IMG/VR virus record: IMGVR_UViG_3300037871_000014
Location: 1-26,314 of that record
Length of the DNA stretch: 26,314 nt
Direction: 5' to 3' (one strand)
Source of the DNA: a virus
Shown: one piece after another, positions 1-14,386 of the stretch
Layout: every line of letters begins with the position of its first letter
How positions within the stretch are numbered: position 1 is the stretch's first letter
The notes under the pieces: generated by a model
Seen by the model: the letters and a program-made list of their open reading frames with translations, nothing else
Told to the model about the DNA's origin: nothing
The model's database searches: none
Program-made: the position numbers and the translations under genes

Positions 1-2
1 AA

Positions 3-797
3 AGTCTCTACGAGAATAGTGAATACCAAAATATAATCCACGATATATCTGATGTATATTTTCCATTGTCACCAAACTGGAAAAATATAGGAATAAGTCT
101 TAGTGGTGGCTGTGATAGTGCCTTAATAGCATATATTATATGCGATTTAATTAAACGTAAAAATTATTATACCAAAATACACATAATTTATAATGTTAGA
201 TTATGGAAAACACGTCCTTGGCAACAACATATTTTTAAACAAGTATTTGCTTGGTTTAAAGAAACATTTAAAGATATAAAGTTTATAGAACATACAAATT
301 TTATTGCACCTGATTTAGAATGGGGTTCTAAAGGTCCAAACATTATTGATGAATATGGCAAATTAAAAAGCGGTAATCAAATAGAGTTAAGATCACACGC
401 AGAATATATAGGTCATAATTATAATCTAGATGCATGGTTTTGTGGACTTACTAAAAATCCTGAAATAAAATTCGATGGCCGATTAACGGACAGAGACAGT
501 ACATTATCAAATGATACTGTTGAAAATCTACATCGATTGATAAAGCCACACATGAATGGCGTGGCTTGTCATCCTTTCACCTTCGTACAAAAAGATTGGA
601 TAGTATCTCAATATAAGAGATTAGGCATCATGAATCTGTTTAATCTTACAAGAAGTTGCGAAGGTGATAAGGAAACTTATCCTGAAATATTTGGAAACCT
701 AGATTATAAAACATATGTTCCAGGTAAAGACATTCCAGTATGTGGTAAATGTTTTTGGTGTAAAGAAAGACAATGGGGAATAGATAACAGTGACTGA
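3..797 (+). CDS. PP-loop ATPase with QueC-like zinc motif (5' partial)
   Basis: The frame is open to the left edge (codons from base 3 contain no stop), so the gene begins upstream and the TTG at base 66 is probably not its start. It shows the PP-loop nucleotide-binding motif SGGCDS (bases 102-119), typical of N-type ATP pyrophosphatases that adenylate a carbonyl before amidation or nitrile formation. Near the C-terminus are a lone Cys and then C-x2-C-x2-C followed by KER (Cys codons at about 657, 741, 750 and 759), like the zinc site of QueC/ExsB (7-cyano-7-deazaguanine synthase). In QueC the first Cys lies about 8 residues before the triplet; here the gap is 27. The PP-loop also lies at least 33 residues in, further than the near-N-terminal position usual in QueC. 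It is therefore a QueC-superfamily protein and perhaps not a true QueC; sugar- or peptide-amidating PP-loop enzymes are alternatives. The downstream radical SAM gene starts inside its last codons, which suggests coupled function. Confidence 0.85.
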   Translation, partial: SLYENSEYQNIIHDISDVYFPLSPNWKNIGISLSGGCDSALIAYIICDLIKRKNYYTKIHIIYNVRLWKTRPWQQHIFKQVFAWFKETFKDIKFIEHTNFIAPDLEWGSKGPNIIDEYGKLKSGNQIELRSHAEYIGHNYNLDAWFCGLTKNPEIKFDGRLTDRDSTLSNDTVENLHRLIKPHMNGVACHPFTFVQKDWIVSQYKRLGIMNLFNLTRSCEGDKETYPEIFGNLDYKTYVPGKDIPVCGKCFWCKERQWGIDNSD

Positions 798-2208
798 AAG
801 TAATGAATATTGGTTAAATCCTAAAGATTCTAAATTAGGTAAATGGCAAAGAGAAATAGAATCAGTTAGTGGTTCTTGTACTTTTTGTGTATTGCCTTGG
901 ATTCACTTTGCTACACGCCCTAATGGAGATATGCGTTTATGTTGTAGTGCAAACGCCAGTGGAGCAGGAAAAGATCACAAAGTAGGTCTTGTTAAAAAAG
1001 AAGATGGCACACCAGCAAACTTTGGAAAAGATACACCAATGAGTGCTTGGAACAATGAATATATGAAGTCAGTTCGTAAAACTATGTTAGCTGGAAAAAT
1101 ACCTGCTAGTTGTACTAAATGTTTCAATGAAGAAAAAGTAGGAGTAGTTAGTAAACGTATTTGGGAAACGGGTACGTGGCACAAAGATGGTGTAGATATT
1201 CCTGAATTAATAAAACAAACACAAGAAGATGGAACTGTACCTGAAACATTAAGATATTTAGATTTAAGATTAGGCCATACTTGTAATATTAAGTGTGTTA
1301 TGTGTTCTCCTCATGACAGTTCTAAATGGGTTGCAGATTGGCAACGACTTATGCCTCAACTAACAATACCTACAGTTAGAAAACAAATGTCTTGGGGTAA
1401 ACAAGAATTTAATAACAAGTGGCACGAAAAAGATACATTTTGGGCAGAAATGAATAAACAAATTCCTAATTTAAAACAAGTTTATTTTGCTGGTGGTGAA
1501 CCTTTAATGATTAGAGAACATAAAACATTTATTGAAGAAATTGTACGACAAGGATATCAAGATAAAATCTTATTAAGATATAATTCAAATGGTATATTAG
1601 TAGACGAAGATTTAATTGAGTTATGGAGCAAGTTTAAGAAAGTTAAATTTGCAATTAGCATGGACGCTTGTCATGAACGAGATGAATATATACGTTTTCC
1701 AACTAACTGGGATACCGTAGAAAAGAATCTTCGTATGTTAGACAACACTCCCGACAATATACAAACAAGTTTAGCAACTGCTATACAAATTTTTAATGTA
1801 AAACACTTGCCAGACTTTATGAAATGGAAAGTAGAATCTAAATTTAAAAAACTTAATTTAGGAACTGTACCCGGCGGTACACAAATGGGAGGTGGATTAG
1901 TTAATATGCACTTGCTTTACATACCTACATTTTTAAGTATTCAAATATTACCTAAAGAGGATAAACAAGAAGTTCGTGAACGTTATACAGAATTTAAAGA
2001 ATGGTTATGGAAAAACTACAGACAAGATGATGAATATTGGAAACACAATCCTTATGGCTGGAAACGTTGGGAGGCTGTAATGGATCATATGGATGAAAAA
2101 GATAATAGTCATCTACTTCCAGGATTTAAAGAATACGTTACTAAACTAGATGGTATAAGAAAATTATCTGCTAAATCCACTTTTCCCGAGTTATCACATC
2201 TTTTATAA
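790..2208 (+). CDS. Radical SAM enzyme with N-terminal twitch (SPASM-like) domain
   Basis: A 472-aa protein. The N-terminal part carries Cys pairs C30-x2-C33, C51-C52 and C108-x2-C111, as expected for an auxiliary Fe-S 'twitch' domain placed before the radical SAM barrel. The radical SAM signature CNIKCVMC follows (C165, C169, C172), then AGGEP, which contacts S-adenosylmethionine. This is the layout of the 'twitch domain-containing radical SAM' family, whose reaction is not known to me. The start is GTG at 790: a stop lies just upstream in frame at 781, no ATG occurs before residue 48, and GGGGA at 775-779 gives a ribosome-binding site. The start overlaps the PP-loop gene by 8 bp. The 3' end overlaps the convergent SGNH-type gene by 38 bp. 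It has the same architecture as the - strand protein at 4695-5960. Family assignment is firm; substrate unknown. Confidence 0.93.
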   Translation: MTESNEYWLNPKDSKLGKWQREIESVSGSCTFCVLPWIHFATRPNGDMRLCCSANASGAGKDHKVGLVKKEDGTPANFGKDTPMSAWNNEYMKSVRKTMLAGKIPASCTKCFNEEKVGVVSKRIWETGTWHKDGVDIPELIKQTQEDGTVPETLRYLDLRLGHTCNIKCVMCSPHDSSKWVADWQRLMPQLTIPTVRKQMSWGKQEFNNKWHEKDTFWAEMNKQIPNLKQVYFAGGEPLMIREHKTFIEEIVRQGYQDKILLRYNSNGILVDEDLIELWSKFKKVKFAISMDACHERDEYIRFPTNWDTVEKNLRMLDNTPDNIQTSLATAIQIFNVKHLPDFMKWKVESKFKKLNLGTVPGGTQMGGGLVNMHLLYIPTFLSIQILPKEDKQEVRERYTEFKEWLWKNYRQDDEYWKHNPYGWKRWEAVMDHMDEKDNSHLLPGFKEYVTKLDGIRKLSAKSTFPELSHLL

Positions 2209-2866
2209 GATTAAAAACTTCATTGTCACCATCTGGTCCCATATGATTAACTCTAAAAGCAAATATACTTTGTAAAAATCTTAAATTTTCTTCGCACCAA
2301 GCTCTTTTTGGATCTGTTCTACAACTAATATAATACAAAGGTTTTCTTATTTCTATTCCGTGTTTCCAAGTATGCAAATACTTAATTTGATCTAGTTCTG
2401 CGTCACTCCAAGGTTCTACTCTAGTATCTCCAAAACTCCATAAGTGTAAAATTTTACCTTTCATTTTAGACAAGTATTCATTGTCTAACCAATAAGCAAC
2501 AGCCTGAAAATTTAATCTTTCTTTATTCCATTCTACTAATTCTTCAAAAAACATTTGAGCGGCTTTATGTCTTTTACTAGAACCTTGATAAGCACTAGGT
2601 GGACTAAAATCTCCTTTTGAATGATATATTCTAAAAGGATCAGTCCAAGCAAATACACAATAATCTAAATCTTTAAATTTATGAAAGTTTTTTGTAAAAT
2701 GCATAACGGCAGTCCAATAACTTGAACCACTAATTCCTGTATTTACAATTTCTGCATCTAATGAATCTGCCATTCGACCCATCCAATTATCTTTAAGAGG
2801 GTGAGCAATAAAACTGTCTCCGAAGAAACCTATTTTGTTTTTGGCACCTGAATGTCCGCTATACAT
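2171..2866 (-). CDS. SGNH/GDSL-hydrolase-like protein
   Basis: A 231-aa protein with the block I motif of SGNH esterases close to its N-terminus (GFFGDSF, GDS at residues 16-18, Ser as nucleophile) and a block II-like NTGISG stretch near residues 42-47. Near the C-terminus, FRVNHMGPDG resembles the His-containing block V, but the Asp normally three residues before the His is replaced by Arg. The usual GxND of block III is not evident; AWTDPFR lies in that region. Activity is therefore uncertain; the fold suggests deacetylation or ester hydrolysis on sugars or lipids. I chose ATG at 2866 because AAAGG lies 5 nt before it, while a GTG two codons upstream overlaps that site. It starts inside the preceding radical SAM gene (37-bp overlap) and is the last gene of the - strand block. 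Confidence 0.7.
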   Translation of the reverse strand: MYSGHSGAKNKIGFFGDSFIAHPLKDNWMGRMADSLDAEIVNTGISGSSYWTAVMHFTKNFHKFKDLDYCVFAWTDPFRIYHSKGDFSPPSAYQGSSKRHKAAQMFFEELVEWNKERLNFQAVAYWLDNEYLSKMKGKILHLWSFGDTRVEPWSDAELDQIKYLHTWKHGIEIRKPLYYISCRTDPKRAWCEENLRFLQSIFAFRVNHMGPDGDNEVFNLIKDVITREKWI

Positions 2867-3810
2867 ACACACCTTTCTTGATTACAAATAACACTAGTTG
2901 TTGGAAAATTAAAATCTTCATCATATTTTTTACCTGTAAAACCTTCAGATAAAACTCTGCAACCTGCTCCTAAATACATTCTTTTGTCATAATTAATATA
3001 AATTCTGTTTATACCAGCATTACAAGTATAACCACGCCAATCAACAATATCATTTGCTACTGTCCAATATGGATCAAAGTCATATGTTTGATCATCTTCT
3101 ACCATATACATATCTCTATTAAATCTAGTATCTATTTTTTCATTAACTCTTTCTTGAGCTCTAATTGTACCTTTAAATATCTGTTTTTGTTCTTCTGTAT
3201 AAGGATATAAGTCTCTTTCACTTACAGTATCGGTGTCCCAAACTTGATGTAATGGTTTAGCTTGAATCCCCCATTCAGTTCTGTTGCTATTTTTTAATAC
3301 ATCTATTATATCCATACATTTAGACCATTCATCGGGTTTCATCATTATATGACAAATATTATCTACTTTATTTTCTATTAAAAAGTCACATACATCTCTA
3401 ATATGTTCTGGTTTTGTAAATTCTGGATGAATACTAAAATGCACTGCAAAAAAATTTTTATAATTATCTTTCCACCAATCCATTTTTCTACTACCATTTG
3501 TCATAGGTATTATTAAATTATTTTCTTTTTGATTAATATATTCACATAGTTTTGCAAAATCTTTATAAAGAGTAGGTTCACCTCCACCAAACTTCCAAAT
3601 AAAATGTGTAATACCCATATCAGTATAATGATTATGTAATTTGTCTATAAATTTTTTACTTTTTTCTAAATTAATCCAAGGAAAAGAATTATCATGTAAT
3701 ATAGGTAAACAATATGAACAATTATAATTGCAAGTATTACCTAAAGTCCATTCAATTTGTAAAACATTGTTTAATTCAGGAAATTTATAAGTTATTTTGT
3801 GTATTTTCAT
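2830..3810 (-). CDS. Radical SAM enzyme with Cys-rich SPASM-like C-terminus (paralogue A)
   Basis: A 326-aa protein. The radical SAM motif CNYNCSYC (C27, C31, C34) is near the N-terminus, followed by GGGEP. The C-terminal region has C263 in a CNAG motif, C284, then C309-x4-C314-V-C316 followed by IAD, which fits an auxiliary iron-sulfur cluster as in SPASM enzymes. The same pattern occurs in the proteins at 3785-4702 and 9102-10088, so these three form one subfamily. SPASM enzymes usually modify peptides or proteins, and some act on small molecules or sugars; the substrate cannot be read here. The ATG start lies inside the 3' end of the upstream paralogue (26-bp overlap), so the two are probably translationally coupled. 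Confidence 0.93.
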   Translation of the reverse strand: MKIHKITYKFPELNNVLQIEWTLGNTCNYNCSYCLPILHDNSFPWINLEKSKKFIDKLHNHYTDMGITHFIWKFGGGEPTLYKDFAKLCEYINQKENNLIIPMTNGSRKMDWWKDNYKNFFAVHFSIHPEFTKPEHIRDVCDFLIENKVDNICHIMMKPDEWSKCMDIIDVLKNSNRTEWGIQAKPLHQVWDTDTVSERDLYPYTEEQKQIFKGTIRAQERVNEKIDTRFNRDMYMVEDDQTYDFDPYWTVANDIVDWRGYTCNAGINRIYINYDKRMYLGAGCRVLSEGFTGKKYDEDFNFPTTSVICNQERCVCIADIQVPKTK

Positions 3811-4702
3811 TTTTTATTTTTGTTAAATTTATATCCGCGGCACACGTACACCATTCTCTTGTACACACAATAGGATCTTTTGGAATTTCAAACGTACCAT
3901 TATAAATGTTACCTATACTTCCTCCTACTCTACAAGTTGCTCTATGTACATCACCATCCCAATTAATCATTAAACTTTCTAAACCTGCATTACAAAGCCA
4001 TCCTTTAAATTTATTAGTTTTCAAAATTAACATATCATTTACATTACAAGTTTTGGATTTGTCTACCAAAGTATTATGTGGTGGATTATGATTTTGGATT
4101 TTCAAAAACTTTATTTCTTCTTCGCTATACCGATTCATATCTTCAAAATCATCATGCTTTTTGGTCCACCGAATTGGACGCAAACTATACTTTATATTAC
4201 CATTTAAAAGGCGTCTACAAGCGTCTTGCACGTCATTTAACGAGCCTGGAAGCATCATTACGTGTACAAGAGCATTCTTATTAACTGAGCTGTTAACTGC
4301 CCTTATTATTGTTTCTACAACTTTATTCCAGTCATATTCGAAGTGTAAACTAAACACAATATGGTTAAGATAATTGTCCAAAAGATTTTGGTAATACTCG
4401 GCTGTTCTGGTACCGTTAGTGGTTACATTTATCCATGTAACTTTTGGTTTTGCATATTCTAAAAGTTCTGTAAATTTTGGATGCACACAAGGTTCACCTC
4501 CTGTAAAACTTATTCTAGGTTTATTCATTTTAGAAATAATATCTACAGTATTTTTAAGTATTTCAATATCAGTATGTTCACTAAAATTATCATGAATTTC
4601 TGCAGGACAATAACTGCAATCATAGTTACATCTTTTACCTATGTTCCATTCTATTTTAGTACTTTGTCGTACATCTTCATATAAATGTTCTACTCTATAC
4701 AT
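3785..4702 (-). CDS. Radical SAM enzyme with Cys-rich SPASM-like C-terminus (paralogue B)
   Basis: A 305-aa protein with CNYDCSYC (C25, C29, C32), TGGEP, and a C-terminal Cys set: C237 in CNAG, C257, then C280-x4-C285-T-C287 followed by AAD. The INWDGDVH stretch after CNAG matches the usual SPASM pattern of a hydrophobic strand and a DG turn. I chose ATG at 4702 rather than an in-frame TTG ten codons upstream because it gives the same distance to the radical SAM motif as in the neighbouring paralogue (C25 versus C27). A GGAG lies about 10 nt upstream. It overlaps the upstream gene by 8 bp. Adjacent to paralogue A in tandem, it probably arose by duplication; the two proteins are nonetheless clearly diverged in their middle regions, which suggests different substrates or partners. 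Confidence 0.92.
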   Translation of the reverse strand: MYRVEHLYEDVRQSTKIEWNIGKRCNYDCSYCPAEIHDNFSEHTDIEILKNTVDIISKMNKPRISFTGGEPCVHPKFTELLEYAKPKVTWINVTTNGTRTAEYYQNLLDNYLNHIVFSLHFEYDWNKVVETIIRAVNSSVNKNALVHVMMLPGSLNDVQDACRRLLNGNIKYSLRPIRWTKKHDDFEDMNRYSEEEIKFLKIQNHNPPHNTLVDKSKTCNVNDMLILKTNKFKGWLCNAGLESLMINWDGDVHRATCRVGGSIGNIYNGTFEIPKDPIVCTREWCTCAADINLTKIKNENTQNNL

Positions 4703-5960
4703 ATGGAGCAAACTCCGGAATAATTTTTTCAAAAGGACCTTGATTTCTTGTTTTATCTAACTTATGATTAAAATCTACACAATCTTTCCAATACTTGTTT
4801 AGATCTCTTGCTTTAAGAAAATTAATATTATCCTGAATTTGTTGTAATGTAATTTTTTCTAATATTGGATGTTCCTTAACTAACCTATATTCTTTAACTT
4901 TGTCCTTCATTAATTCTAATTTTGCTATAACTTTATCTTTTAATTCCTTTGGTAATACTTGGGCACTCAAGGCTCTAGGATATTGTACCCTATGACTATA
5001 AAATACAATTTCTAATTTGTTTAAAAAATAGTCTATTACCTTGTCTATTTGCATTATATTATTAGATTGTACTGTAAATGCTCCTACAATTCTACTTACT
5101 GTAGGTATATTTTTCATTATTCTAACATTATCTACAACATCTTGAAACTTTCCATTGGATCTAACATATTCATATACTTCATCTATCCCATCAATACTAA
5201 CATTAACAGCTACACTTTTAAATTTGGGCCAATAGTCTTTAATCCATCTTCCTTTTATTCCTAACACTGTACCATTTGTTGCATATTTTATTTCTATATT
5301 TTTCCCATTCTCACTGAGAAGATCTAAAATTTTATAATGTTGAGGGTCCATCAAAGGCTCGCCTCCTGCAAATTCTACTCTTTTAAAATGAGGTAATAGT
5401 TTTCTTAAGCTATCCCACCATTCTTTTTTATCGTCAAACAATCCAACATATGGTGCTTTTGTAAGTCCTAAATCTTCTACTGCTTTAACAAGATAGTTGT
5501 CTTCTTTTTTATAATGTTCTACAATGCTATTCCAATCTTTCCATTGTGTACTATCTAATGGATTACACATACGACATTTTAAATTACATAAATTATTAAT
5601 TTTAATTTCCATCGTAGGAAGTTCAAATGGCATTGTCATATCTTTAGAAAGACTATCAAGTGCATTAGGATAAAGGTTAACTCTTGATTCCGGTATATTA
5701 TCTGCAATATGTCTTTGTCTTAAACTTTGTACTCCTTGATCTTCTAAATCAAAACAAGGTGCACAAACATCAGGACGTTCTCCATTTAATACTTGCCGTC
5801 TTACTTCTCGCATTTTTTCACTATTCCAAGCAAATTCTAAACTTTCATTTTTAATATTACCAATAGGAAGACTTCTACAACATATCTTAATTGCGCCATC
5901 TTCTCTAGTAGCAAGACCAGTAAATGGATGCATACAAAACGTACAACTTTTATTTTTCAT
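4695..5960 (-). CDS. Radical SAM enzyme with N-terminal twitch (SPASM-like) domain
   Basis: A 421-aa protein. The N-terminal domain has C6-x2-C9, C27-C28 and C66-x2-C69, followed by the radical SAM motif CNLKCRMC (C125, C129, C132) and AGGEP. The order (auxiliary-cluster domain first, barrel second) is the reverse of ordinary SPASM enzymes and identical to the + strand protein at 790-2208. The two share local patterns such as CTFC...P at the start, FAGGEPLM, and ATNGT or NSNGI after the second strand. The ATG at 5960 lies 11 bp inside the preceding gene. It sits between the Rossmann-like two-part protein and two SPASM-type radical SAM genes. Reaction unknown. Confidence 0.93.
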   Translation of the reverse strand: MKNKSCTFCMHPFTGLATREDGAIKICCRSLPIGNIKNESLEFAWNSEKMREVRRQVLNGERPDVCAPCFDLEDQGVQSLRQRHIADNIPESRVNLYPNALDSLSKDMTMPFELPTMEIKINNLCNLKCRMCNPLDSTQWKDWNSIVEHYKKEDNYLVKAVEDLGLTKAPYVGLFDDKKEWWDSLRKLLPHFKRVEFAGGEPLMDPQHYKILDLLSENGKNIEIKYATNGTVLGIKGRWIKDYWPKFKSVAVNVSIDGIDEVYEYVRSNGKFQDVVDNVRIMKNIPTVSRIVGAFTVQSNNIMQIDKVIDYFLNKLEIVFYSHRVQYPRALSAQVLPKELKDKVIAKLELMKDKVKEYRLVKEHPILEKITLQQIQDNINFLKARDLNKYWKDCVDFNHKLDKTRNQGPFEKIIPEFAPYV

Positions 5961-7320
5961 TTAAATTTTTCCAATCTTCCCCAAATCTCCATAGCGGAGC
6001 TTTTAAATCTTCAAGATCCATTTCGTCAAATTTTTCTGCTGGGCCTGTGTGTCGTTTGTATTCTGACAAGCCACTCCAAGCATGAACTGAAACTACTAAT
6101 TGTATTTTAGGACTTTTCTCTTTTAATATACGCAATAATTTGTTTTCTTTTTCTAATCTTTGTTTAACAGTAATAAAAGCTACTGTAGGTTCATAAGCAA
6201 AAATATTACTAATATTAAAAATTGTATTTTCATCATTATTAATATCTATATTAAATTCATTTAATAAATCGCATTGAACAAATTGCATTTTTATATCATC
6301 TTTTAAATGCCACAATTTAGCAACTTTGCTAAAATTAGTAATAATTTCTTGTTTACTTTGAAACCAATCAGGTGCTTTATCTTTTATAAGACCTTTTAAG
6401 AATTTATGATAATCATGCCCATTAAATTTATTAATTGTTTCTTTCATATACCATAATGCATTAGGATTATAATCATAAAATATAACTTCTGTATTTTCAT
6501 CATGTCCGTACTTGTCTAAATATAACAACCAATTAAATCCACTGGCAGGAACAATTAATTGTGAAATAGGTCCTTTTATATTAACATCTTGTAATTTTTT
6601 TGTATTAGTAGGATAATAAAGTCTGTTCGCGGCAAAATTATATTTTTGATATATGCTTTGACTATTTTCTTGAAAGTCTGAATCATATTCAGCATAATAA
6701 CATTTTTTACTATCTCTTATTTTCTGATCAAATATTACTATATCCTCATCATTATCTAAAGCAATATTAAGTATATTCCAACCATGCCATTTATCCTTAT
6801 ACTCTATCATTTCATTACCAGGTTTAATCCAAAGTGGTGTATGATTATCATGATAATTTTCTTCACTTCTAATAGGCACAGCTTTTAAGTGTTTTTCGTT
6901 TTCTACTTCTGCACCCATATCTGGATAATCATATTCAACCCATTTTTTTAAATTGATAACATAACATTGTTCATGAAGTTCATAGTATCCTTCTTTTCTA
7001 TCTAATATATGTCCTGCTATAAAGAAATCTGTTTTAACTAATTCTTCTAAATATGTGAAAAATTTATCTCCCTCAAATTCTGTATCTACTGTATAAACTA
7101 CTGCGTGAGTATAATCTTTTTCACATTGTTTTAAACCATTTTCTTCTGTTACCGCAGTTAATAAATCATAACCACTACTAGTAATATTTTGCACTTGATA
7201 ATCTGCAATATTTTTAATTAACTCTTTAGTCCAAGTTCTTTGGATCTTATACATAGTGTCTAAACAAATAAACACAATTTTAGATTTCTCTTTTGTTAAT
7301 GCTTCAAATTTGTACGCCAT
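5950..7320 (-). CDS. Two-part protein of unknown function; second half Rossmann/methyltransferase-like
   Basis: A 456-aa protein that I do not recognise as a named family. The first ~200 residues alternate hydrophobic strands and helices (for example KIVFICLD, HAVVYTVDTEF, then AGHILDRKEGYYELH) and could be a degenerate GT-A-type nucleotide-sugar-binding domain. The region around residues 250-390 has a strand and loop (LIVPASGFNWL) followed about 20 residues later by VIFYDYNPNA, where the acidic residue after the strand resembles motif II of class I methyltransferases. I infer a two-domain glycosyltransferase-like plus methyltransferase-like protein at low confidence. The start is ATG at 7320, preceded at 11 nt by a full AAGGAG; an in-frame TTG seven codons upstream overlaps that site and is unlikely. 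It starts inside the methyltransferase gene (25-bp overlap). Confidence 0.8.
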   Translation of the reverse strand: MAYKFEALTKEKSKIVFICLDTMYKIQRTWTKELIKNIADYQVQNITSSGYDLLTAVTEENGLKQCEKDYTHAVVYTVDTEFEGDKFFTYLEELVKTDFFIAGHILDRKEGYYELHEQCYVINLKKWVEYDYPDMGAEVENEKHLKAVPIRSEENYHDNHTPLWIKPGNEMIEYKDKWHGWNILNIALDNDEDIVIFDQKIRDSKKCYYAEYDSDFQENSQSIYQKYNFAANRLYYPTNTKKLQDVNIKGPISQLIVPASGFNWLLYLDKYGHDENTEVIFYDYNPNALWYMKETINKFNGHDYHKFLKGLIKDKAPDWFQSKQEIITNFSKVAKLWHLKDDIKMQFVQCDLLNEFNIDINNDENTIFNISNIFAYEPTVAFITVKQRLEKENKLLRILKEKSPKIQLVVSVHAWSGLSEYKRHTGPAEKFDEMDLEDLKAPLWRFGEDWKNLNEK

Positions 7321-7964
7321 ACTTGTCCCAACTCCTTGCAATTAAATCTGTAAATTCTTTTCTTTTTTCCTATCACCATATATCTTTCATACTTAGGTAA
7401 CTCTAATGTACCTGAATACAAAATATTTGTTAATTCACATTTCTTTTTAAAAGCTTCTTCAGAAAGCACACAACTAATATGTTCTTTATGTTCTATAAAA
7501 TTGTTACTTTGTAAAATTATTAATTTATCTTCAGGTATATTCTCTAACCATTTATAATATTGATCCCAAGACATATGCTCGCACACTGTATTAATAATAA
7601 TATCATAATCTTTATAATTTTTAAAGTCTAACATATCACAAGTATCTGCTTTAAATTTTCCATTAATTTCATAATGTTTATTCATATTAAGTGCGATTGG
7701 TTTACACCCTGGATCAATATCTATACTTCTAATATTATTAACTTTAATATTGCTATTAAATAATAATGTAGCCATTACACCATACCATCCTCCGCATATA
7801 AGAACATTTGCATTAGCAGGTCTAACTATTTCATTAAGTTGTTCAGTTAACCAAACTTTACTAGATATTTGTCCTTTCCAAAAACTTTCTAATGTTTTAT
7901 ACTTGTCATCGGATCCCCTAATAGCATCCATCCAGTACATTACATCTTTAATATTGAGTTTCAA
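7296..7964 (-). CDS. Class I SAM-dependent methyltransferase-like protein
   Basis: A 222-aa protein with a Rossmann-type SAM-binding pattern: motif I VLICGGWYGV (residues 54-63), an acidic motif II about 20 residues later (SIDIDP), and a DIIINTVCEHM strand in the position of motif IV. The substrate is unknown; its place among radical SAM and glycosyltransferase genes suggests methylation of the same product. The start is TTG at 7964. AGGAG stands exactly 6 nt before it, whereas the first ATG (residue 9) has no comparable site. The TTG lies 17 bp inside the 3' end of the upstream radical SAM gene, and the ribosome-binding site lies wholly inside that coding region. The unusual start may lower expression relative to its neighbours. 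Confidence 0.8.
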   Translation of the reverse strand: MKLNIKDVMYWMDAIRGSDDKYKTLESFWKGQISSKVWLTEQLNEIVRPANANVLICGGWYGVMATLLFNSNIKVNNIRSIDIDPGCKPIALNMNKHYEINGKFKADTCDMLDFKNYKDYDIIINTVCEHMSWDQYYKWLENIPEDKLIILQSNNFIEHKEHISCVLSEEAFKKKCELTNILYSGTLELPKYERYMVIGKKKRIYRFNCKELGQVWRTNLKH

Positions 7965-8937
7965 ATTGTTCTCCTAATCTATCAAATTTTCCACATTGTT
8001 TTGAACATTCTATTAAAGGTTTATCTGTCCATGTGGCTTCTATTTTTCTAAAAAATTGTGAATCAAAAATTTCCTTTAAAGATTTATTATGTAAATTAGC
8101 AAATTCTCCTATTTGATCCATATAATCTACTCTTGCATCTGATGTAGGTATTGTCCATCGCAAGTCTAACCAACAACAAGGACTAACAGTACCATCTGCA
8201 GAAATATATATTTGACTATATTTTTTAGCTTTACAATCTATTGCACAAGGAGTTATTTTTGCTTCTTTTATTTTATCTATCATTTCAAAACTCTTTTTAC
8301 TTGGTTCTAATATGTGTGTTGTTCTTCCCATTTCATCTATAACATGAAATTTATCACTTTTAAATCTTGATGTGTGTTTATAACTAAAAGATTTAAAACC
8401 TAATTCCCTACTCATTGTTTGGCATTCTTCTACTTGGTGTTCATTATGTTTAAAAACTAACATATGCCATTTTGCAAAACCACCTGCTTTAATAAATGCT
8501 TTAGCATTTGTAATTATTTTTTCCCAATTAGTAGAAACACGATAAAGATGATGAGTATCTACCAAACCGTCTATACCAAAAGTTATTTTTACTTTTTCTT
8601 TAGCTAACGCCTCCCACCAATCTGTATCTCTAGCACTACCGTTTGTATGCATAGCTAATCTAATTTTTGGATTAACAGTTCTAATATACTGATAAATTTC
8701 TAAAGTATCTTGAGCAATTATAGGATCTCCTAAATTACCACACATGAATAAACTATCTAATTGAATTAAAAATTCTGTAGGAAACCATTTTTTAAATGTA
8801 TCTAAATTAATTTCTACAAGATGTATCAATGGATTTAAAGGACCTCCACCTATTCTTCTAGGACACATAGGACATCTAGCTTGACATTTGCTAGTAATTT
8901 CTAAATGCACATCTTTTATTTCTGTATAATTATACAT
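7948..8937 (-). CDS. Radical SAM/SPASM domain protein
   Basis: A 329-aa protein with CQARCPMC (C18, C22, C25) in an N-terminal context (HLEITSKC) typical of SPASM enzymes. A C-terminal SPASM domain follows: C231-x3-C235, then IYISADGTVSPCC (C254-C255), then C311-x3-C315. Where the usual GGEP stands, the sequence is CGNLGDPI, a variant seen in other SPASM enzymes. It belongs to a different subfamily from the three CNYxCSYC proteins here. The start is ATG at 8937, with AAGGA 5 nt upstream; a longer frame with no ribosome-binding site was rejected. It overlaps the 63-aa gene upstream by 8 bp. SPASM enzymes include peptide and protein modifiers; no precursor peptide is obvious. Confidence 0.93.
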   Translation of the reverse strand: MYNYTEIKDVHLEITSKCQARCPMCPRRIGGGPLNPLIHLVEINLDTFKKWFPTEFLIQLDSLFMCGNLGDPIIAQDTLEIYQYIRTVNPKIRLAMHTNGSARDTDWWEALAKEKVKITFGIDGLVDTHHLYRVSTNWEKIITNAKAFIKAGGFAKWHMLVFKHNEHQVEECQTMSRELGFKSFSYKHTSRFKSDKFHVIDEMGRTTHILEPSKKSFEMIDKIKEAKITPCAIDCKAKKYSQIYISADGTVSPCCWLDLRWTIPTSDARVDYMDQIGEFANLHNKSLKEIFDSQFFRKIEATWTDKPLIECSKQCGKFDRLGEQFETQY

Positions 8938-9121
8938 CTTCTTCCTTTGGTAAAAGATCATCAAACTCTTGTTGCGTAATCATTTCTAATTCTACTGCAT
9001 CAGCACCTTCTTTGTAGTGTTCATCAACTTCTTCTAATATCATTTTATATGGTAGACTATAATGCCACACCACTTCCTTTTTACCCTTTGTCACTATACA
9101 CTTATAATTGTCTAGTTTCAT
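8930..9121 (-). CDS. Small acidic protein between two radical SAM genes
   Basis: A 63-aa protein with a basic, aromatic N-terminal third and an acidic C-terminal half (EEVDEH near residues 30-35; PKEEDV at the end). It has one Cys (residue 8), no signal peptide and no membrane segment. A clear ribosome-binding site (AAAGGA, 5 nt before the ATG) and 20-bp and 8-bp overlaps with the flanking radical SAM genes make it a real gene. I do not recognise the family. It could be an adaptor, a small binding partner or a substrate of the adjacent enzymes. It lacks the leader/core layout of a classical RiPP precursor, so substrate status is only a guess. Confidence 0.75.
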   Translation of the reverse strand: MKLDNYKCIVTKGKKEVVWHYSLPYKMILEEVDEHYKEGADAVELEMITQQEFDDLLPKEEDV

Positions 9122-10088
9122 TTTTTTCCTTTGGTATTTTAGAATCAGCCGAACTTACACACGTTGGTGTAATACAAACTTTAGGCTTATCAAATAATTT
9201 AAAACCACCTTCTATTGTTCCTAATGGCTCGTCATGACAACTGTAGCCTCTTTTAATTTCTCCTCCCGGTTCTCTTATAATACAACTTTGATATCCAGCA
9301 CTACAACTCCAACCTTTAAATTTATTAAATCCAAATGCATTAAGTCTTTCTGCTTGGTCTATTTCATATTGTTTTCCTAAATTATCAAACAATATTAATT
9401 GTTTTGCTTCATGGTTCATTTCATTTTGTAATATATTAACTTGTTCTTTTGTATATCCTTGTACAATAAAACTTGCTGTAGTGTCACTTTGGGGTTTAAG
9501 AGTAACGTGTAATCCTTTATCTCTAAATCTTTTACATCTATCAAAATACTCATCCCATCTATCAGGCACCATAACTTGATTAATTGTTATTAATACACCT
9601 TGTTCTTGTAAAAATTTAAGTTTATTTCCAAATTCTTCTTCATTAGAAAATTCTGCATGGTAACTTGCTGTAATACCTCTACGATCCAATGGATAAGTTG
9701 CATCTAACCAACGACTCCACCATTTAAGACCTGGACTACAATTACTAGTCATATGAACACTAAGATATTCGCTAGTAGGATCTGCATAATATTCTAATAA
9801 TTCTATTAAACCTTTATATGTTGTTGGTTCTCCCCCACTAAAACTAAAATGAAATTTACTAAATCCATTTTCTTCTGCTTGTCTTTTAATTTCTTTCATA
9901 GTATTTTGATATTGTTCTAAAGGTCTATGATCTAAAACTTTACTTTTAGCATAAGGCCAACAATAGCTACAATCATAATTACAAAATCTTCCAAGTATCC
10001 AACTAACGGAGAACACGTTTTGTTCCAACATAGTTCTTTGTCCGAATTTGACTATATCATTAAATGGTATATTATTTTGATAATCCAC
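9102..10088 (-). CDS. Radical SAM enzyme with SPASM-like C-terminus missing one Cys (paralogue C)
   Basis: A 328-aa protein with CNYDCSYC (C36, C40, C43), SGGEP, and a C-terminal region aligning with paralogues A and B: C262 in CSAG, C284, then C305-x4-C310-V-S312 followed by SAD. In A and B the last position of this cluster is Cys (C-V-C or C-T-C), but here it is Ser. An extra C269 could compensate, or a cluster may be altered or lost. Two in-frame GTG codons compete for the start. I chose 10088 because AAGGA lies 8 nt before it; the GTG at 10094 is only 2 nt from that site. It overlaps the upstream glycosyltransferase gene by 17 bp. Confidence 0.9.
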   Translation of the reverse strand: MDYQNNIPFNDIVKFGQRTMLEQNVFSVSWILGRFCNYDCSYCWPYAKSKVLDHRPLEQYQNTMKEIKRQAEENGFSKFHFSFSGGEPTTYKGLIELLEYYADPTSEYLSVHMTSNCSPGLKWWSRWLDATYPLDRRGITASYHAEFSNEEEFGNKLKFLQEQGVLITINQVMVPDRWDEYFDRCKRFRDKGLHVTLKPQSDTTASFIVQGYTKEQVNILQNEMNHEAKQLILFDNLGKQYEIDQAERLNAFGFNKFKGWSCSAGYQSCIIREPGGEIKRGYSCHDEPLGTIEGGFKLFDKPKVCITPTCVSSADSKIPKEKNETRQL

Positions 10089-10779
10089 AAACACTATCCT
10101 TCATTTTATATTTGTAATATTCTTCTAACCACGTAAAATTATTAATTAATTTTAATTTACTTGGTAAATCTTTACTTTCAGATCCGTATTCTTTTCCTGC
10201 TAACGCTCCTTTAATTGCATATTCACCATAAAGTTTATCTTTACCTACAGTGCACCATACATTTAATCTACTATCTGTTTCTTTATCATCACCTCTATCA
10301 ATTACTTTACTACTTAATTTTACACACTCTCTAAATGCCGATTTAAAAGTATTAAACGCATTTGTATTGAATACGCTAATATTAGAAACTTGTTCCATTG
10401 CTCTAAATCTGTTACTAATACTAGTTGTCATATCTGTAGTATCTTCTTTCATTTCTAATGTTAATCTACGAGGTAAAAGTTTTACACCACCGTACCCATA
10501 TTCTAAATTATTAATTGGATTTTTACTTCTCCAGACGTGTACTACATTTTCATTTCTTTTTTCAGGCATAAAATCAAAATTAAAATCATCTAATACTTTA
10601 GCATCACCATCAACGACCCAAAACATTTTTGTCAAACATTTACTTGCGGCTGTTTTATGTGCTTTATGAATTCCTTGTACACCATCTACCCGTTGAACTA
10701 TAGGAAATCTTTTATATAATTCATTAAAGTGCTTGTCAGCATTAACTTCTTTATAGCTTATAAAAACAATATCATACAT
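10072..10779 (-). CDS. Glycosyltransferase-like protein (GT-A type, first pair)
   Basis: A 235-aa protein. It starts with a strand typical of nucleotide-sugar binding (YDIVFISYKE) and has a DGD motif at residues 57-59 at the end of a strand (FWVVDGDAKV), matching the metal-binding DxD of GT-A glycosyltransferases. It aligns over most of its length with the next gene upstream: VNADKH with PNAERN, RVDGVQG with RVHGVQG, and YGYGGVKLL with YGNGSLKLW, plus FRECVK with FREGVK. Donor and acceptor sugars are unknown. The ATG is preceded by AAGGA at 7 nt; start and preceding stop share one base (TAATG), a classic coupling arrangement. The position near tail-fibre genes suggests modification of phage particles or host surface glycans. 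Confidence 0.78.
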   Translation of the reverse strand: MYDIVFISYKEVNADKHFNELYKRFPIVQRVDGVQGIHKAHKTAASKCLTKMFWVVDGDAKVLDDFNFDFMPEKRNENVVHVWRSKNPINNLEYGYGGVKLLPRRLTLEMKEDTTDMTTSISNRFRAMEQVSNISVFNTNAFNTFKSAFRECVKLSSKVIDRGDDKETDSRLNVWCTVGKDKLYGEYAIKGALAGKEYGSESKDLPSKLKLINNFTWLEEYYKYKMKDSVCGLSK

Positions 10780-11726
10780 TATAGTTTCCTTTTTTTAAAA
10801 ATTCTTGGACTATTCATATAAACAGATTTAAAAAACTTACTTTGTTCTGTAGACAAAGGTAATACAGGTAAATCTATTTCTTCTCTATTTCTAATTTCGT
10901 GTCCTAATTTTATTATTTCAGCCATTAATTCTACTTCATTTAACTTAGAATGTTTAGGCCCACTTTTTCTTAAATTATCTCCTCTTCCCATTTTGTTTGG
11001 GTGCCATTCAGATAAAAGATATTCAAAATCTCTTACTTGATTTATATCCCAGTCAGTACAAACAACTTTATGACAGCCCATTCTTGCTCCGTATATTGAC
11101 CATAATCCATTTTCTACATCTGCACCTACAGACATCCACACTAACAATCTATGATAATTTTGCCACCACAACTCTTTTAATCTTGGAGCTCTAGCATTTC
11201 TGTCGATGCTCATTTTTACTCCTTCTCTAAAACCTGATCTCCAGGCTTGTAAAGGACTAGCATTAATATAACTTGTAGAATAATTTTCATTAAACTGATA
11301 ATAGTTTGGAAAATGACAAAACTCTACTGAATTTTTATCTTTACCATCATGGTTTTCATGAGTTTTCATATTTTTAACAAAGTCTTTTGTCCATAATTTT
11401 AAACTACCATTGCCATATTTTAACCCATTTAAGTTAATATTGCCACACCAGCTAAACATATACGTATTGTCGACGCCTAATGCTTTTAAATCTATTTCTA
11501 CATCAAGAAAATCTTTATCTACAATAGTATCACCGTCTATTGTAACAAATCTTTCTGCATCAGATACATCTGCACAGGCTTTATGAGCCGCATCTAATCC
11601 TTGTACACCATGAACTCTTTTAGCCCAAGGAAATTTTTTCTTTAAATCCGCATAATTTCTTTCAGCATTAGGTTCGTCATAGCTTAAAAATACTAAATCA
11701 GAATCTTGAATTTTAATTCTATCCAT
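10779..11726 (-). CDS. Glycosyltransferase-like protein (GT-A type, first pair)
   Basis: A 315-aa paralogue of the downstream 235-aa protein, with DGD at residues 64-66 (FVTIDGDTIV) as the probable metal and nucleotide-sugar site. Compared with its partner it has an extended central and C-terminal region of about 80 residues, rich in charged residues and ending in a basic tail (KKRKL). The ATG at 11726 is preceded by GAGG at 6 nt and overlaps the upstream gene by 8 bp. Retention of two diverged copies side by side suggests different acceptors or successive transfer steps. The role in the cell cannot be read; no membrane segments are apparent, so a cytoplasmic enzyme is likely. Confidence 0.78.
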   Translation of the reverse strand: MDRIKIQDSDLVFLSYDEPNAERNYADLKKKFPWAKRVHGVQGLDAAHKACADVSDAERFVTIDGDTIVDKDFLDVEIDLKALGVDNTYMFSWCGNINLNGLKYGNGSLKLWTKDFVKNMKTHENHDGKDKNSVEFCHFPNYYQFNENYSTSYINASPLQAWRSGFREGVKMSIDRNARAPRLKELWWQNYHRLLVWMSVGADVENGLWSIYGARMGCHKVVCTDWDINQVRDFEYLLSEWHPNKMGRGDNLRKSGPKHSKLNEVELMAEIIKLGHEIRNREEIDLPVLPLSTEQSKFFKSVYMNSPRIFKKRKL

Positions 11727-12318
11727 TAACTACCTCATAACTATAATCATAAAGTTTTCTACAATACAAAGAAGGGACATTATTACTTTTATGTTCTATT
11801 GTAAGTGTTTTTTGTTTAATTAAATTGTTTAAATTGACTGGTAATATATAATCTAATATATTAGCATCATCTTTTTTAGTAACATAAAAGTCTAAAACTA
11901 TATCTTCCGACATATCTAAAGTATTTTGTATCTCTTGCCCCAAATTATCATTAATACCTATATTCCACTGTTTATTTTTCATATCTAGTTTAAATGAAAT
12001 TTTATCATTTATATCATTAGACTCTATTTTGTATACATTTCTATTTTCTGTCTTTTTAGAAGACGTAACTTCATACGCTATCCCATCCATATCAGTTTTA
12101 GATTTAACAATATACTTTCCGTCTTGTAAAATTATAACGTATTGCGATAAATTTTTTACTCCATTAGCAATATCATGTCCTAAAGACTCTGGAACTTCTA
12201 CAGAATTTCCTTTTTTAATGACACTACAATTAAGAACTTGTCCAGTATCTTTATTAAAATTAAAATACCATTTTTGTTCTTTTATATCAGGCGTAAATGT
12301 TAAATCAGGTCTTTGCAT
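11719..12318 (-). CDS. Conserved-looking hypothetical protein with internal repeat
   Basis: A 199-aa protein that I do not recognise. It is rich in charged and polar residues and beta-type alternation, with no Cys pairs or nucleotide-binding motif. Two segments resemble each other: around residues 13-30 (KEQKWYFNFNKDTGQVLN) and 113-131 (KNKQWNIGINDNLGQEIQN), so the protein may consist of two similar beta-rich halves. The ATG has GGAG 5 nt upstream and overlaps the preceding gene by 19 bp. It separates the two glycosyltransferase pairs. It could be a structural or binding protein, perhaps the acceptor of the neighbouring enzymes, but nothing in the sequence proves this. Confidence 0.75.
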   Translation of the reverse strand: MQRPDLTFTPDIKEQKWYFNFNKDTGQVLNCSVIKKGNSVEVPESLGHDIANGVKNLSQYVIILQDGKYIVKSKTDMDGIAYEVTSSKKTENRNVYKIESNDINDKISFKLDMKNKQWNIGINDNLGQEIQNTLDMSEDIVLDFYVTKKDDANILDYILPVNLNNLIKQKTLTIEHKSNNVPSLYCRKLYDYSYEVVNG

Positions 12319-13148
12319 TTATTCTCCAACTTATCAAATAGTTCATTTGTTAAAAATCCAGGATCTACATAATGAAATATTCCGTTTTGTTTATAATTTC
12401 CTATTTTTAAATTACAGTCATCATCAAAATAAGAGTTTACATAAGACATCCAAGCATTGGGTTTGTATTTCCAATTTTGTATATTTGGTTTCATATGTGT
12501 AAATGTTAAAAAATTTACTTTAGAAGTTATATTATTAGCATTATTAATTAATTGACTTGCTATTGCTACCGATAAATCCATACTACACCATCTTTGTGTA
12601 TTCATAGGTGTATATCTTTTGTAATATATGTCATAATTTTTTATTATATGTTCTACTAAAGCAAAAAAATTAAAGTTATTTTTTGTTTTTTTAAAATAAT
12701 GCATACCACAATATAAATTTGGTAAATTATTCTTTGTAAATGCTTTTCTATAAAAGTCTGATGATGCAATTTTGTTTTTATAAGTTTTTACTTGCGATGT
12801 AAAGTATAAATCAAAGTTATCTAAAAATTTCCACCGGTGATCCAGGTTTTCTAAGACCAACATATCAGCATCTAGTACTATTGTTTCATCATACGGTGAT
12901 GCATTATAAATTTTACACCTATTTTCTACTTTCCAAATGCTTTCTTCCGCATAATCGTCCCCAGGTATACCTATAATACTATTAAAATACTTTTTTAACT
13001 CATCAGGTACATTAATATTAGTCATCAAACACACATTTGCATTTTTATTATGTAATTTTATACTCATAGACAATGCAACTGCTTGTTTAAAGTAGTCTGT
13101 GCTTTTATTCGACTGCACAAAAATAAGATACCCTTTATTTTTTATCAT
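12300..13148 (-). CDS. Glycosyltransferase-like protein (second pair, GT8-like fold)
   Basis: A 282-aa protein. The N-terminal GYLIFVQ strand, the PYDETIVLDADMLV segment with DAD at residues 93-95, and a later region with a conserved Trp and His (FTHMKP) resemble retaining GT-A enzymes of the GT8 type, which bind a metal and UDP-sugar. It aligns with the upstream neighbour over most of its length (PYDETIV, HYFKK/FYFKK, a following FF...HI helix). I chose ATG at 13148 because a perfect AAGGAGG stands 6 nt before it; the longer frame would begin upstream of that site. It overlaps the next upstream gene by 14 bp. Substrates unknown. Confidence 0.8.
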   Translation of the reverse strand: MIKNKGYLIFVQSNKSTDYFKQAVALSMSIKLHNKNANVCLMTNINVPDELKKYFNSIIGIPGDDYAEESIWKVENRCKIYNASPYDETIVLDADMLVLENLDHRWKFLDNFDLYFTSQVKTYKNKIASSDFYRKAFTKNNLPNLYCGMHYFKKTKNNFNFFALVEHIIKNYDIYYKRYTPMNTQRWCSMDLSVAIASQLINNANNITSKVNFLTFTHMKPNIQNWKYKPNAWMSYVNSYFDDDCNLKIGNYKQNGIFHYVDPGFLTNELFDKLENKCKDLI

Positions 13149-13992
13149 GTTGATCCTCCTTAATCCAGCGATCATACATTATTGCACGTCCCAACGCCAA
13201 CTTATTCATAATATGTAAATTCATACCATTAATTTTACACGGATAATATTCTTTTGTATCAACTGACAACTTTAATTCCCAATCTCCATCAAAATGTATA
13301 ACTTCATCTCTATCAGTTATGTAATACAACTTACTTGGTAGCTTCATGGGCCAATTAGTTTCTTGAAAATCATTAAACATATGAATAGCAATACTAAAGG
13401 AATGATCATTTCTGTAATTCTGTCCTATTATTTGATATGTGAATCTATAAAATGACCAATTATCTTTAATATGTTTAATTAATTCAAAGAACGTTTTCAT
13501 TTTATCAGTCTTTTTAAAATAAAATACAGTAGCCCAATACATAGGAATACTAGGATCACTTACATCTACATCTAATAAATCCTCTCTATGTTGATAATTG
13601 ATATATTCTGCATCTTTATTAATTAAAAAGTCCGCATTTGATTGAAAACATTTTAATAGATGATCATTACCTACAATATAATCTGTGTCCATAACAATAG
13701 TTTCATCGTAAGGTGTTAAATCATAACAATCAGGCCTTGAAAAGTTATGCCATAAAGCATTATATTTGTTTGTAGAACCGTCTAGAAATGATTTTGTTTG
13801 GTTTGTATTAGTGTTTTTAATAGGAATGATTTTGTCAAACAAGGAAATACTATCAGGAGGTACTTTATTTGATGTTACCAGACTTACTGGTATGTTTAAA
13901 TGTTTTTTAATTTGTTCACAACAAAAGATTGCCTGCGATACATAATCTATTAGGCTATTGTTATGAGCAAATAGTAATACACCTTTAGTCAT
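13135..13992 (-). CDS. Glycosyltransferase-like protein (second pair, GT8-like fold)
   Basis: A 285-aa paralogue of the downstream protein, with DTD at residues 102-104 in PYDETIVMDTDYIV as the probable metal and sugar-nucleotide site, and FYFKKTD in the second half. The strand GVLLFAHNN at the start fits a Rossmann-like GT-A domain. The ATG lies 8 bp inside the preceding gene. The nearest purine-rich sites are AAAGG directly adjacent to the ATG and GGGGA about 12 nt upstream, so translation is probably coupled to the upstream gene. It is the first enzyme gene of the block in the direction of transcription. Donor and acceptor unknown. Confidence 0.8.
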   Translation of the reverse strand: MTKGVLLFAHNNSLIDYVSQAIFCCEQIKKHLNIPVSLVTSNKVPPDSISLFDKIIPIKNTNTNQTKSFLDGSTNKYNALWHNFSRPDCYDLTPYDETIVMDTDYIVGNDHLLKCFQSNADFLINKDAEYINYQHREDLLDVDVSDPSIPMYWATVFYFKKTDKMKTFFELIKHIKDNWSFYRFTYQIIGQNYRNDHSFSIAIHMFNDFQETNWPMKLPSKLYYITDRDEVIHFDGDWELKLSVDTKEYYPCKINGMNLHIMNKLALGRAIMYDRWIKEDQHDKK

Positions 13993-14329: not shown

Positions 14330-14386
14330 ACGTTTTCTTTGCGATTATAACAGGATTTATGAATTTAATCAAGTAGGATTTTGGTA
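14330..14386 (-). promoter_or_regulatory. 57-bp gap at the structural/modification junction; possible late promoter
   Basis: This is the widest non-coding gap in the window. On the - strand it contains CATAAATC (14354-14361), 24 nt before the next ATG and near the T4-type late box TATAAATA, and GTTATAAT (14344-14351), which resembles a sigma70 -10 box. No strong hairpin is visible, so I see no intrinsic terminator. In a sequence this rich in A and T such boxes occur by chance, hence the low confidence. Confidence 0.25.

Follow-up and report, generated by a model that had tools for sequence, protein, structure and literature searches.

Why would a tailed phage place six genes for radical S-adenosylmethionine (SAM) enzymes beside its tail-fibre genes, and on what would their products act? 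The question is raised by a 26,314-base virus record of IMG/VR, IMGVR_UViG_3300037871_000014 (the window, meaning here the whole of this stretch), whose genes are designated A to V (Table 1). A sequence-only reading of this DNA had proposed a multi-step modification pathway acting on tail-fibre proteins or on a glycan. Comparison with viral relatives shows that nine genes recur together, namely A, F, E, B, I, H, J and K of the window and a family designated c4, which adjoins A directly off the window's left edge. They may constitute a tailoring cassette that is complete in itself and carried by viruses, namely jumbo tailed phages, a conclusion that is credible but held tentatively.

Recurrence, order and minimal form of the gene block

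Viral relatives numbered 121 for F and 473 for A, 80 of each being kept. Counts for F loci refer to 39 representatives hand-picked from 80 loci, and those for A loci to 37 representatives from 78 loci dereplicated at 95% identity (one of 79 loci lacked an assigned A, L064 being left out); a further count covers those 26 dereplicated A loci that have 5 kb or more on each flank, with score thresholds set by the analyst. Since contigs are cut in both locus sets, the co-occurrence counts are lower bounds. E and B are present in all 39 F loci, A and c4 in 36 each, I in 35, H in 32, J and D in 25 each, K/L in 17 and G in 8 (main cluster). The 26 A loci all hold F, E and B, with c4 in 24, I in 23, H in 22, J in 19, D in 15, G in 13 and K in 11, some loci being cut before K.

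In a frequent order, A-F-E share one strand and B-(D)-I/H-J-K the opposite one, though insertions and exceptions occur. F adjoins E in 34 of the 39 representatives, A adjoins F in 27 of the 36 that have A, and c4 adjoins A in 26 of the 33 that have both. A shorter arrangement, c4-A-I-H-K-L-N-O-P-Q-R, abuts the tail genes at locus L265, in a 66,015-base record with one radical SAM match, and F, E, B and J were not found there; L274, L275 and L276 read c13-c4-A-I-H-K, and of three radical SAM matches in the 107,488-base record that contains L276, two are over the cut-off. It may be that c4, A, I, H and K form an irreducible core and the other radical SAM genes its elaboration, as these fragments suggest.

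Beyond these viruses, two scans of 84,980 bacterial and archaeal species with two short motifs each brought up 84 and 23 pattern stretches, none of them a relative (distant ones could escape), and a bacterial origin or a homologous bacterial operon was set aside on the outcome of these weak tests. Among 50,697 phage records searched by tblastn, A, G, K and L had no match, F had just 24-26% matches in Vibrio phages, and E and I just distant ones.

Phage lineage and integrity of the window

The sequence-only reading had named mis-assembly as a finding that would speak against a single system. This is unlikely, because five other contigs (L004/L084, L005/L085, L006/L086, L007/L087 and L094) hold the gene set A to S, as far as each locus reaches, at 98-100% identity. 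The 104,729-base relative G001, besides which four more contigs hold the block, carries the window genes at 98-100% identity, followed by further phage genes that include a family B DNA polymerase. Among cultured phages, tail protein U comes closest to its counterparts in Sinorhizobium phage Phosso (54%) and Agrobacterium phage Atu_ph07 (51%), ahead of GAP32/CBB-type jumbo phages, and cassette-bearing records are as long as 357,559 and 363,943 bases; both observations indicate a jumbo T4-like lineage and not a pelagimyophage. Judged by sequence, the window is an uncultured branch of such a lineage related to Atu_ph07, and a pelagimyophage assignment, first suspected from fibre repeats, was given up in view of the affinity of U.

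Only two intergenic gaps, of 164 and 57 bases, interrupt the window between positions 3 and 15274; C through V all lie on the minus strand, and A and B on the plus strand. The neighbourhood runs on past the left edge, where relatives such as G001 show c4, oxygenase-like genes and a seventh radical SAM gene, which in G001 carries an HMPTM zinc ribbon. The T4-type late promoter octamer TATAAATA was considered as a sign of late expression or co-expression of the cassette and proved unusable, there being no copy in the window against 8.55 expected. G001 (L096-L101) has four copies against about 28 expected, all of them 13-78 bases upstream of the start of an open reading frame (ORF); its avoidance elsewhere suggests that the octamer is a live late promoter in this lineage.

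The radical SAM enzymes

The six radical SAM genes of the sequence-only reading are confirmed. Their ORFs open at, or within some codons of, the positions that it gave, each has the CX3CX2C motif, and their PF04055 scores of 36.4-58.9 bits exceed the Pfam cut-off of 29.5, far beyond chance (E-values in the Pfam scan: B 2e-11, D 7.8e-9, E 8.9e-16, F 2.4e-13, I 3e-9, J 2.3e-13). B (397.3 bits) and F (334.8 bits) are members of N_Twi_rSAM (NCBIfam NF033640, cut-off 170 bits), for which D, I and J fall under the cut-off and E is not among the 25 matches listed. The SPASM family (PF13186, cut-off 21.5 bits) is matched by I at 37.6 bits in its C-terminal part (E 2.7e-9), by F at 37.1 in its N-terminal part and by B at 20.2, slightly under the cut-off, while D, E and J gave no match at E<=0.1 in the Pfam scan. 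D, E and J have in common the C-terminal pattern C-x-AG ... C ... C-x4-C, seen for E and J in alignments and for D in its translation, but J reads C-V-S where E has C-T-C. The division into three architectures is thereby upheld for two N-terminal twitch enzymes (B, F), one SPASM enzyme (I) and three proteins with a variant cysteine pattern, of which J is without the last cysteine.

For D, E and J, NCBIfam gives viperin (NF038283) as the best match, but it is partial (44.1, 59.1 and 40.5 bits against a cut-off of 180); E also matches pVip of PADLOC at 1.6e-18 over residues 17-139. Searched against the PDB, the family profile of E finds viperin-like chains, MoaA and YydG, and that of I finds as its best match BlsE, a cytosylglucuronate decarboxylase (E 3e-7). 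Mean column identity reaches 80% for F (14 sequences), 75% for B (18 sequences), 63% for both J and E, and 47% for I. In a comparison of three pairs, the ratio of nonsynonymous to synonymous substitution rates (dN/dS) is 0.05-0.18 for B, E, F and J, and C, D and H reach 0.2-0.33.

The 357-kb record G008, which shares the core and has 13 radical SAM matches, encodes IscU (2.1e-55), an A-type Fe-S carrier (1.5e-14) and a glutaredoxin (7.1e-12), which fits a heavy Fe-S demand; a motif search in pieces of G001, G007 and G011 gave no convincing copy of such maturation genes. Between I and J, the gap at 8938-9101 contains an open frame, about 54 codons long, which runs on in the close relatives L009-L011. 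It was rejected as a conserved precursor of a ribosomally synthesized and post-translationally modified peptide, since the gap is missing in L012, L013, L014, L016 and L017, and it may be an upstream extension or a small gene (precursors were sought only here). Another record (L106, G007 72150-74738) has an 862-aa ORF with two radical SAM matches, possibly a fusion of two radical SAM proteins.

Protein A, a divergent QueC-fold protein

The window holds 264 of the 273 aa that A has in G001. Its AF2 model (pLDDT 89.7) has as nearest folds MesJ (Z 14.0, residues 14-221) and QueC 3bl5 (Z 13.9, residues 26-264, 4.1 Å, 181 aligned), followed by another QueC at 13.4, Cap9 at 12.5 and QatC at 12.4. 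The ranges of the QueC, Cap9 and QatC alignments take in the cysteine tail, and TilS chains come next at about Z 12, so the margin over them is small. Foldseek places the Cap9-CdnD complex at the top (E 2.9e-6), and the profile of family A run against the PDB did not find QueC, returning just weak PP-loop chains and chance matches. PF06508, of the QueC superfamily, is the commonest Pfam family among the members of A (24 of 29 at E<=0.05, best E 2.1e-5); it exceeds the curated cut-off of 22 bits in 2 of 28 records, the window copy scoring 17.2 bits. PADLOC gave no match for A.

All 29 members of the family, whose mean column identity is 57%, have the SGGxDS loop, TRSCEG, W-xx-[RK]PW, HP and CxxCFWCxER, and their CxxCxxC motif is preceded by C(x)20 in 16 and by C(x)27 in 13. 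Of the signatures used in PMC13329287, neither the canonical QueC zinc motif C(x)8CxxCxxC nor the substrate motifs YxQxHxxE, VPxRN and YPDC occur in any of the 29; equally absent are YxDC of the Cap9 motif H(x)4YxDC and the QatC motifs D(x)4R(x)7WxR, RxRxxx[FY] and CGxCxxRR, and the QatC motifs DxW/YxxxF, P(x)4TK and HP occur in 2, 5 and 29 members, respectively. By the criteria of that paper, A appears to be a separate QueC-fold clade, distinct from canonical QueC, Cap9 and QatC, and it is probably an ATP-dependent ligase. The gene, which the sequence-only reading had called a QueC-like PP-loop ATPase, is cut by the window's left edge.

Members of the QueC superfamily synthesize bases, conjugate protein N-termini or amidate sugars (PMC13329287, PMC13279940), and Cap9 in particular links a base to a protein N-terminus (PMC13279940). 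Cap9, from type IV CBASS (cyclic-oligonucleotide-based antiphage signalling system), and QatC, from qatABCD, are QueC-fold ATP-dependent enzymes, as A probably is, and among its closest folds, and the cysteine spacing given for QatC of P. aeruginosa (PMC13279940) is close to the C(x)20CxxCxxC of 16 of the 29 members. In contrast to both, A is without YxDC of Cap9 and three of the QatC motifs, and is found in phages.

Oxygenase-, methyltransferase- and glycosyltransferase-like proteins

The c4 profile matches the beta-hydroxylase 7v4f of the PDB at 1.4e-16, and H-x-D ... H ... R is invariant in the family. Against PF05118 (Asp_Arg_Hydrox, cut-off 22.6 bits), 8 of 22 members match at E<=0.01, the L004 copy scoring 17.2 bits, and all scores seen for c4 copies lie under the cut-off. 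Two further families, c8 and c9, look like 2-oxoglutarate oxygenases by motif; one c8 copy matches Asp_Arg_Hydrox at 0.0025, and another c8 copy and two c9 copies have no match. For H, Methyltransf_25 is found in 5 of 31 family members at E<=0.01 (best E 4.6e-4) and not in the window copy; GW-G, D-x-D and N...EH are invariant columns, and mean column identity is 51%.

The family profiles of H and K found no match in the PDB. The AF2 model of K (pLDDT 88.1) resembles WrtF in Foldseek (E 1.3e-4) and aligns to B4GALNT1 (VIA Z 11.4, 2.7 Å, 135 aligned); its residues 1-150 reach Z 9-11 with many GT-A chains and also with nucleotidyltransferases, D57 and D59 are invariant, and mean column identity is 71%. 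K is thus, by prediction, a GT-A fold protein, for which a role as glycosyltransferase (GT) is predicted only. Four glycosyltransferase-like genes had been proposed for the window: the proposal holds for K, by its predicted fold, and for L, which groups with K, and finds no such backing for N and O, which have no Pfam match, N belonging to a PHROG of unknown function. The SGNH-like hydrolase assigned to the ORF at 2171-2872 was not recovered in Pfam, PHROGs or the PDB, leaving just a GDS-type motif seen by eye; this gene, C, is together with G and M a local accessory. No strong hydrophobic segment is present in the cassette proteins (the 19-residue mean is at most 1.6), which argues against a membrane-bound O-antigen system. 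The family c7, of about 230 aa (e.g., L079:7959-8651), is present in 30 of the 39 F loci and is kinase-like by eye, with an HKDLG-type motif; the copies scanned had no Pfam match.

Linkage to the tail genes

The tail genes of the window match PHROGs for tail, baseplate and virion proteins. The first part of S has about 34% identity to T; between distant records of the lineage, T itself is 39-57% identical, and dN/dS is 0.5-0.7 in the alignable parts of S and T. N and O, and also L, co-occur with this module. V belongs to a 4,890-aa structural protein in G001 (28515-43187).

Tail protein U is present in 20 of the 26 long F records, the other six being records of 52,595-80,893 bases that are possibly cut. 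Recurrence of the gene set as a block, the check proposed in the sequence-only reading, is borne out, usually beside tail-fibre genes, both by the F and A loci and by these records. Seen from the tail, 25 records with U were taken mainly by length from 80 tail loci; PF04055 matches at E<=1e-5 (1-15 each) are present in every one of the 17 that continue for 16 kb or more downstream of U, against 2 of the 8 shorter ones, the 16-kb threshold having been set post hoc, after records without matches were seen to be short. In the complete genomes of Atu_ph07 and Phosso, all such matches, three in each, lie within 9.2 kb of U, with a weaker annotated radical SAM gene of Phosso at about 15 kb, and the 13 matches of G008 lie within 34.7 kb. 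The distance analysis comprised nine records, leaving out G009 (a near copy of G008) and G011 (two clusters), and the later-found G057, discussed below, would contradict it; the distances alone are used here, because its P values assume independent gene positions, an assumption violated by operons. As far as these sequences go, the exact enzyme set varies while radical SAM genes persist. The second cluster of G011 (112630-122655, L104/L105) has nine ORFs with CX3CX2C between other large fibre-like genes and no BLAST match to window proteins.

A proposed pathway and its alternatives

A hydroxylase, radical SAM enzymes with SPASM or twitch domains, a methyltransferase-like protein, a ligase fold and a GT-A fold form a mix that, by the chemistry of these families, points to a tailoring pathway. 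We tentatively favour a soluble pathway of covalent tailoring, with a virion tail protein as its substrate, as a reading of appreciable but less than even probability. The enzymes would act in succession on one substrate inside the infected cell, namely a virion protein and first of all a tail-fibre or adjoining tail protein. On it, c4 would hydroxylate residues, I (joined in larger versions by F, E, B, J and D) would alter residues by radical chemistry, H would methylate, A would use ATP to form an amide link or to amidate, and K would add a sugar cap; in this scheme the sequence of steps, the substrate and what A makes are guesswork. Such tailoring would give the phage a receptor-binding surface of unusual chemistry, or protect the fibre. 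The location beside the tail genes, the strand shared with them and the resemblances of c4 and of A (to Cap9 and QatC) favour a protein as substrate, and hence a tail protein. In its most specific form, a virus-specific post-translational modification (PTM) in which fibres are decorated during assembly by serial radical SAM chemistry, beta-hydroxylation, methylation, glycosylation and ATP-dependent conjugation by a new clade of QueC-fold ligases, the proposal is doubtful.

Several observations weigh against a tail protein as substrate. In G057 (363,943 bases) the block lies at 239-264 kb and the tail gene T at 135.5 kb, about 100 kb apart, so that tail adjacency is not obligatory; this record also has a fibre-like ORF with a short match at 217-221 kb. 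An orthologous F (E<1e-200) is found in just 3 of the 25 tail-U records, F-like proteins at E<=1e-10 being present in 17, and since there are phages whose tail module comes without orthologous F, the tail proteins can do without precisely this set. The likeness of K is to GT-A proteins at large, and nucleotidyltransferases score similarly. SPASM and twitch domains occur also in sugar and cofactor enzymes, and the Pfam matches of the window proteins include no PqqD-type leader-binding domain. No substrate suggested itself in the analyses, in which no systematic substrate search was made. Of the multi-step pathway on fibre or glycan that had been envisaged for the window, the pathway is thus supported, in that the recurring block resembles one multi-enzyme pathway, and the substrate, fibre or glycan, is a proposal; in G057 the block is distant from the main tail module.

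Chief among the rivals is the making of an unusual sugar or glycan, either for the host surface, against superinfection, or for the fibres, for which the radical SAM enzymes and A would modify a nucleotide sugar, H would methylate it and K, L, N and O would transfer it. We consider this somewhat unlikely. It would accommodate the GT-A fold of K and the relatedness of L to it, the resemblance of I to BlsE, an enzyme acting on a sugar nucleoside (a further point against a protein substrate), and the position of the block in G057, and it has parallels in WbpG, a sugar amidotransferase within the QueC superfamily (PMC13329287), and in the glycosyltransferases of the pelagimyophage host-recognition cluster, read by their authors as O-chain modifiers (PMC7029224). 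Against it stand c4, a partner of beta-hydroxylase type, and the want of any nucleotide-sugar synthesis family or membrane segment among the window proteins scanned, several of which have no assignment. An improbable alternative is a small-molecule, cofactor or peptide pathway, yielding an auxiliary metabolic function or a diffusible product, that merely sits in a variable cargo region beside the fibres. The fibre-side region of marine T4-like phages is indeed hypervariable (PMC7029224); Pelagibacter phage Mosig has genes there that are annotated as aminotransferase, nitroreductase, carbamoyltransferase and MoaA-like; a metabolic benefit was proposed by the authors for the radical SAM module of Campylobacter phage CP220 (PMC2853527), and in G057 the block is away from the tail module. 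Loose cargo would not, however, be expected to recur as one block as the core does, and the two short-motif scans, weak tests as they are, brought up no bacterial copies.

Phages use QueC, radical SAM enzymes and glycosyltransferases on DNA bases, and hypermodification of DNA or RNA, in which the QueC-like protein, radical SAM enzymes, methyltransferase and glycosyltransferase would decorate a nucleobase, was accordingly considered. It is very unlikely: QueD homologues are present in 4 of the 12 records searched (G001, G007, G008 and Phosso) but were not found in the other 8, some of them fragments; QueD lies far from the cassette (in G001 at 96.5 kb against 64 kb), thymidylate synthase is found in just 2 of the 12, and A has none of the canonical QueC substrate motifs. 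Deazaguanine or DNA hypermodification was rejected as the leading explanation on these grounds. A search of the same 12 records for TET/JBP gave no matches, but its positive control was equally silent. The QueD-like PTPS of G001 (94569-96938, L100:14569-16938) stands beside a carbon-nitrogen hydrolase and an IMPDH/GMP reductase gene. The least probable of the explanations, and one hardly to be entertained, is that E, F, B and J work like viperin, producing modified nucleotides directed at competitors or host systems; viperin is the best, partial match of D, E and J, and E matches pVip, but E stays at 59.1 bits against the cut-off of 180, the matches are confined to the radical SAM core, and several different enzymes are kept together.

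Relation to described phage modules

That no phage system with this gene set had been described, as the sequence-only reading supposed, holds in part: neither a paper on the set nor a function for it was found in the available passages of the open-licence PMC literature, but radical-SAM-rich phage modules have been published, pelagimyophages (PMC7029224) being among the phages with such clusters. CP220 has 11 radical SAM proteins and an exchangeable five-gene module (PMC2853527). As in the cassette, several radical SAM genes accompany genes like nucleotide-diphospho-sugar transferases in CP220/CPt10, shortly after baseplate-type genes and exchangeable between close phages (PMC2853527). That module differs in containing an amidinotransferase, absent from the Pfam matches of the 20 window genes scanned, and its enzymes are distantly related, the profile of I reaching at best 90 bits, that of E 45 and that of F 20, with no match for the A and B profiles in the stretch searched. 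The T4-like marine genome TARA_ERS488813_N000010, in which radical SAM genes number 12 and an A-type Fe-S carrier is also encoded (PMC5332604), resembles G008 in radical SAM enrichment and phage-coded Fe-S maturation, the two features on which the likeness is drawn.

Atu_ph07 and Phosso have a radical SAM cluster in the same slot beside U (51-54% identical), after a fibre gene, but its enzymes are not orthologous: the profiles match weakly in 40-kb stretches of Phosso (E 2.7e-5, F 1.1e-4) and not in that of Atu_ph07. The pelagimyophage host-recognition cluster is, like the cassette, a fibre-side variable island with glycosyltransferases (PMC7029224). Mosig shares with the cassette genes annotated as hydroxylase and MoaA-like, but belongs to another phage lineage, with just I-, E-, J- and H-type relatives in the stretch (I 84.3 bits, H 76.8 bits) and two PF04055 matches in the genome, one of them over the cut-off.

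Genes of the window

Table 1. Genes of the window, with the Fe-S maturation genes of the relative G008
Feature	Position	Strand	Description
A	1..797	+	PP-loop protein with divergent QueC fold, probably an ATP-dependent ligase; truncated at 5' end by window edge
B	790..2208	+	N-terminal twitch radical SAM enzyme, core member; NF033640 397 bits
C	2171..2872	-	ORF with GDS-type motif by eye; accessory, narrow distribution, few relatives
D	2830..3810	-	Radical SAM enzyme, variant C-terminal Cys pattern; variable member
E	3785..4702	-	Radical SAM enzyme, core member, usually adjoining F
F	4695..5960	-	N-terminal twitch radical SAM enzyme, core member; NF033640 335 bits
G	5950..7341	-	463-aa accessory protein; no Pfam or NCBIfam family over cut-off
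H	7296..7964	-	Class I methyltransferase-like protein, core member
I	7948..8937	-	Radical SAM enzyme with C-terminal SPASM domain; kept even in minimal form
J	9102..10088	-	Radical SAM enzyme, variant C-terminal Cys pattern; frequent member
K	10072..10779	-	Small soluble protein of predicted GT-A fold with DxD motif; frequent member
L	10779..11726	-	GT-like protein, clusters with K; beside tail genes in many tail loci
M	11719..12318	-	199-aa protein; no Pfam match
N and O	12300..13992	-	Two GT-like proteins by eye; N is phrog_1903 (unknown function); no Pfam match
P (114 aa) and Q (295 aa)	13985..15274	-	Tail module proteins; order R-Q-P-O-N conserved in tail loci
R, S, T	15294..21067	-	Tail-fibre proteins; Peptidase_G2 in R, Collar in T; PHROG tail families for R and T
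U (203 aa, phrog_11259) and V	21071..26314	-	V is a baseplate/virion structural protein, cut by window
G008 Fe-S genes	L291:3647-4042, L292:16366-16728, L296:10309-10569		IscU, A-type Fe-S carrier, glutaredoxin

Significance for jumbo phages

Reports of phage islands rich in radical SAM genes, in some cases adjoining fibre genes, go back to 2010, and none has come with a demonstrated function. For one such island, the comparison defines a gene set that recurs and that apparently has a minimal form of five genes, c4-A-I-H-K. Radical SAM genes occupy the same genomic slot in phages that can be propagated on laboratory hosts, and the question of the substrate thereby becomes testable. If the fibre is the substrate, phages can endow their receptor-binding proteins with chemistry that the genetic code does not provide; and if it is modified post-translationally in the manner proposed, the receptor-binding tip would carry chemistry outside the twenty encoded amino acids.

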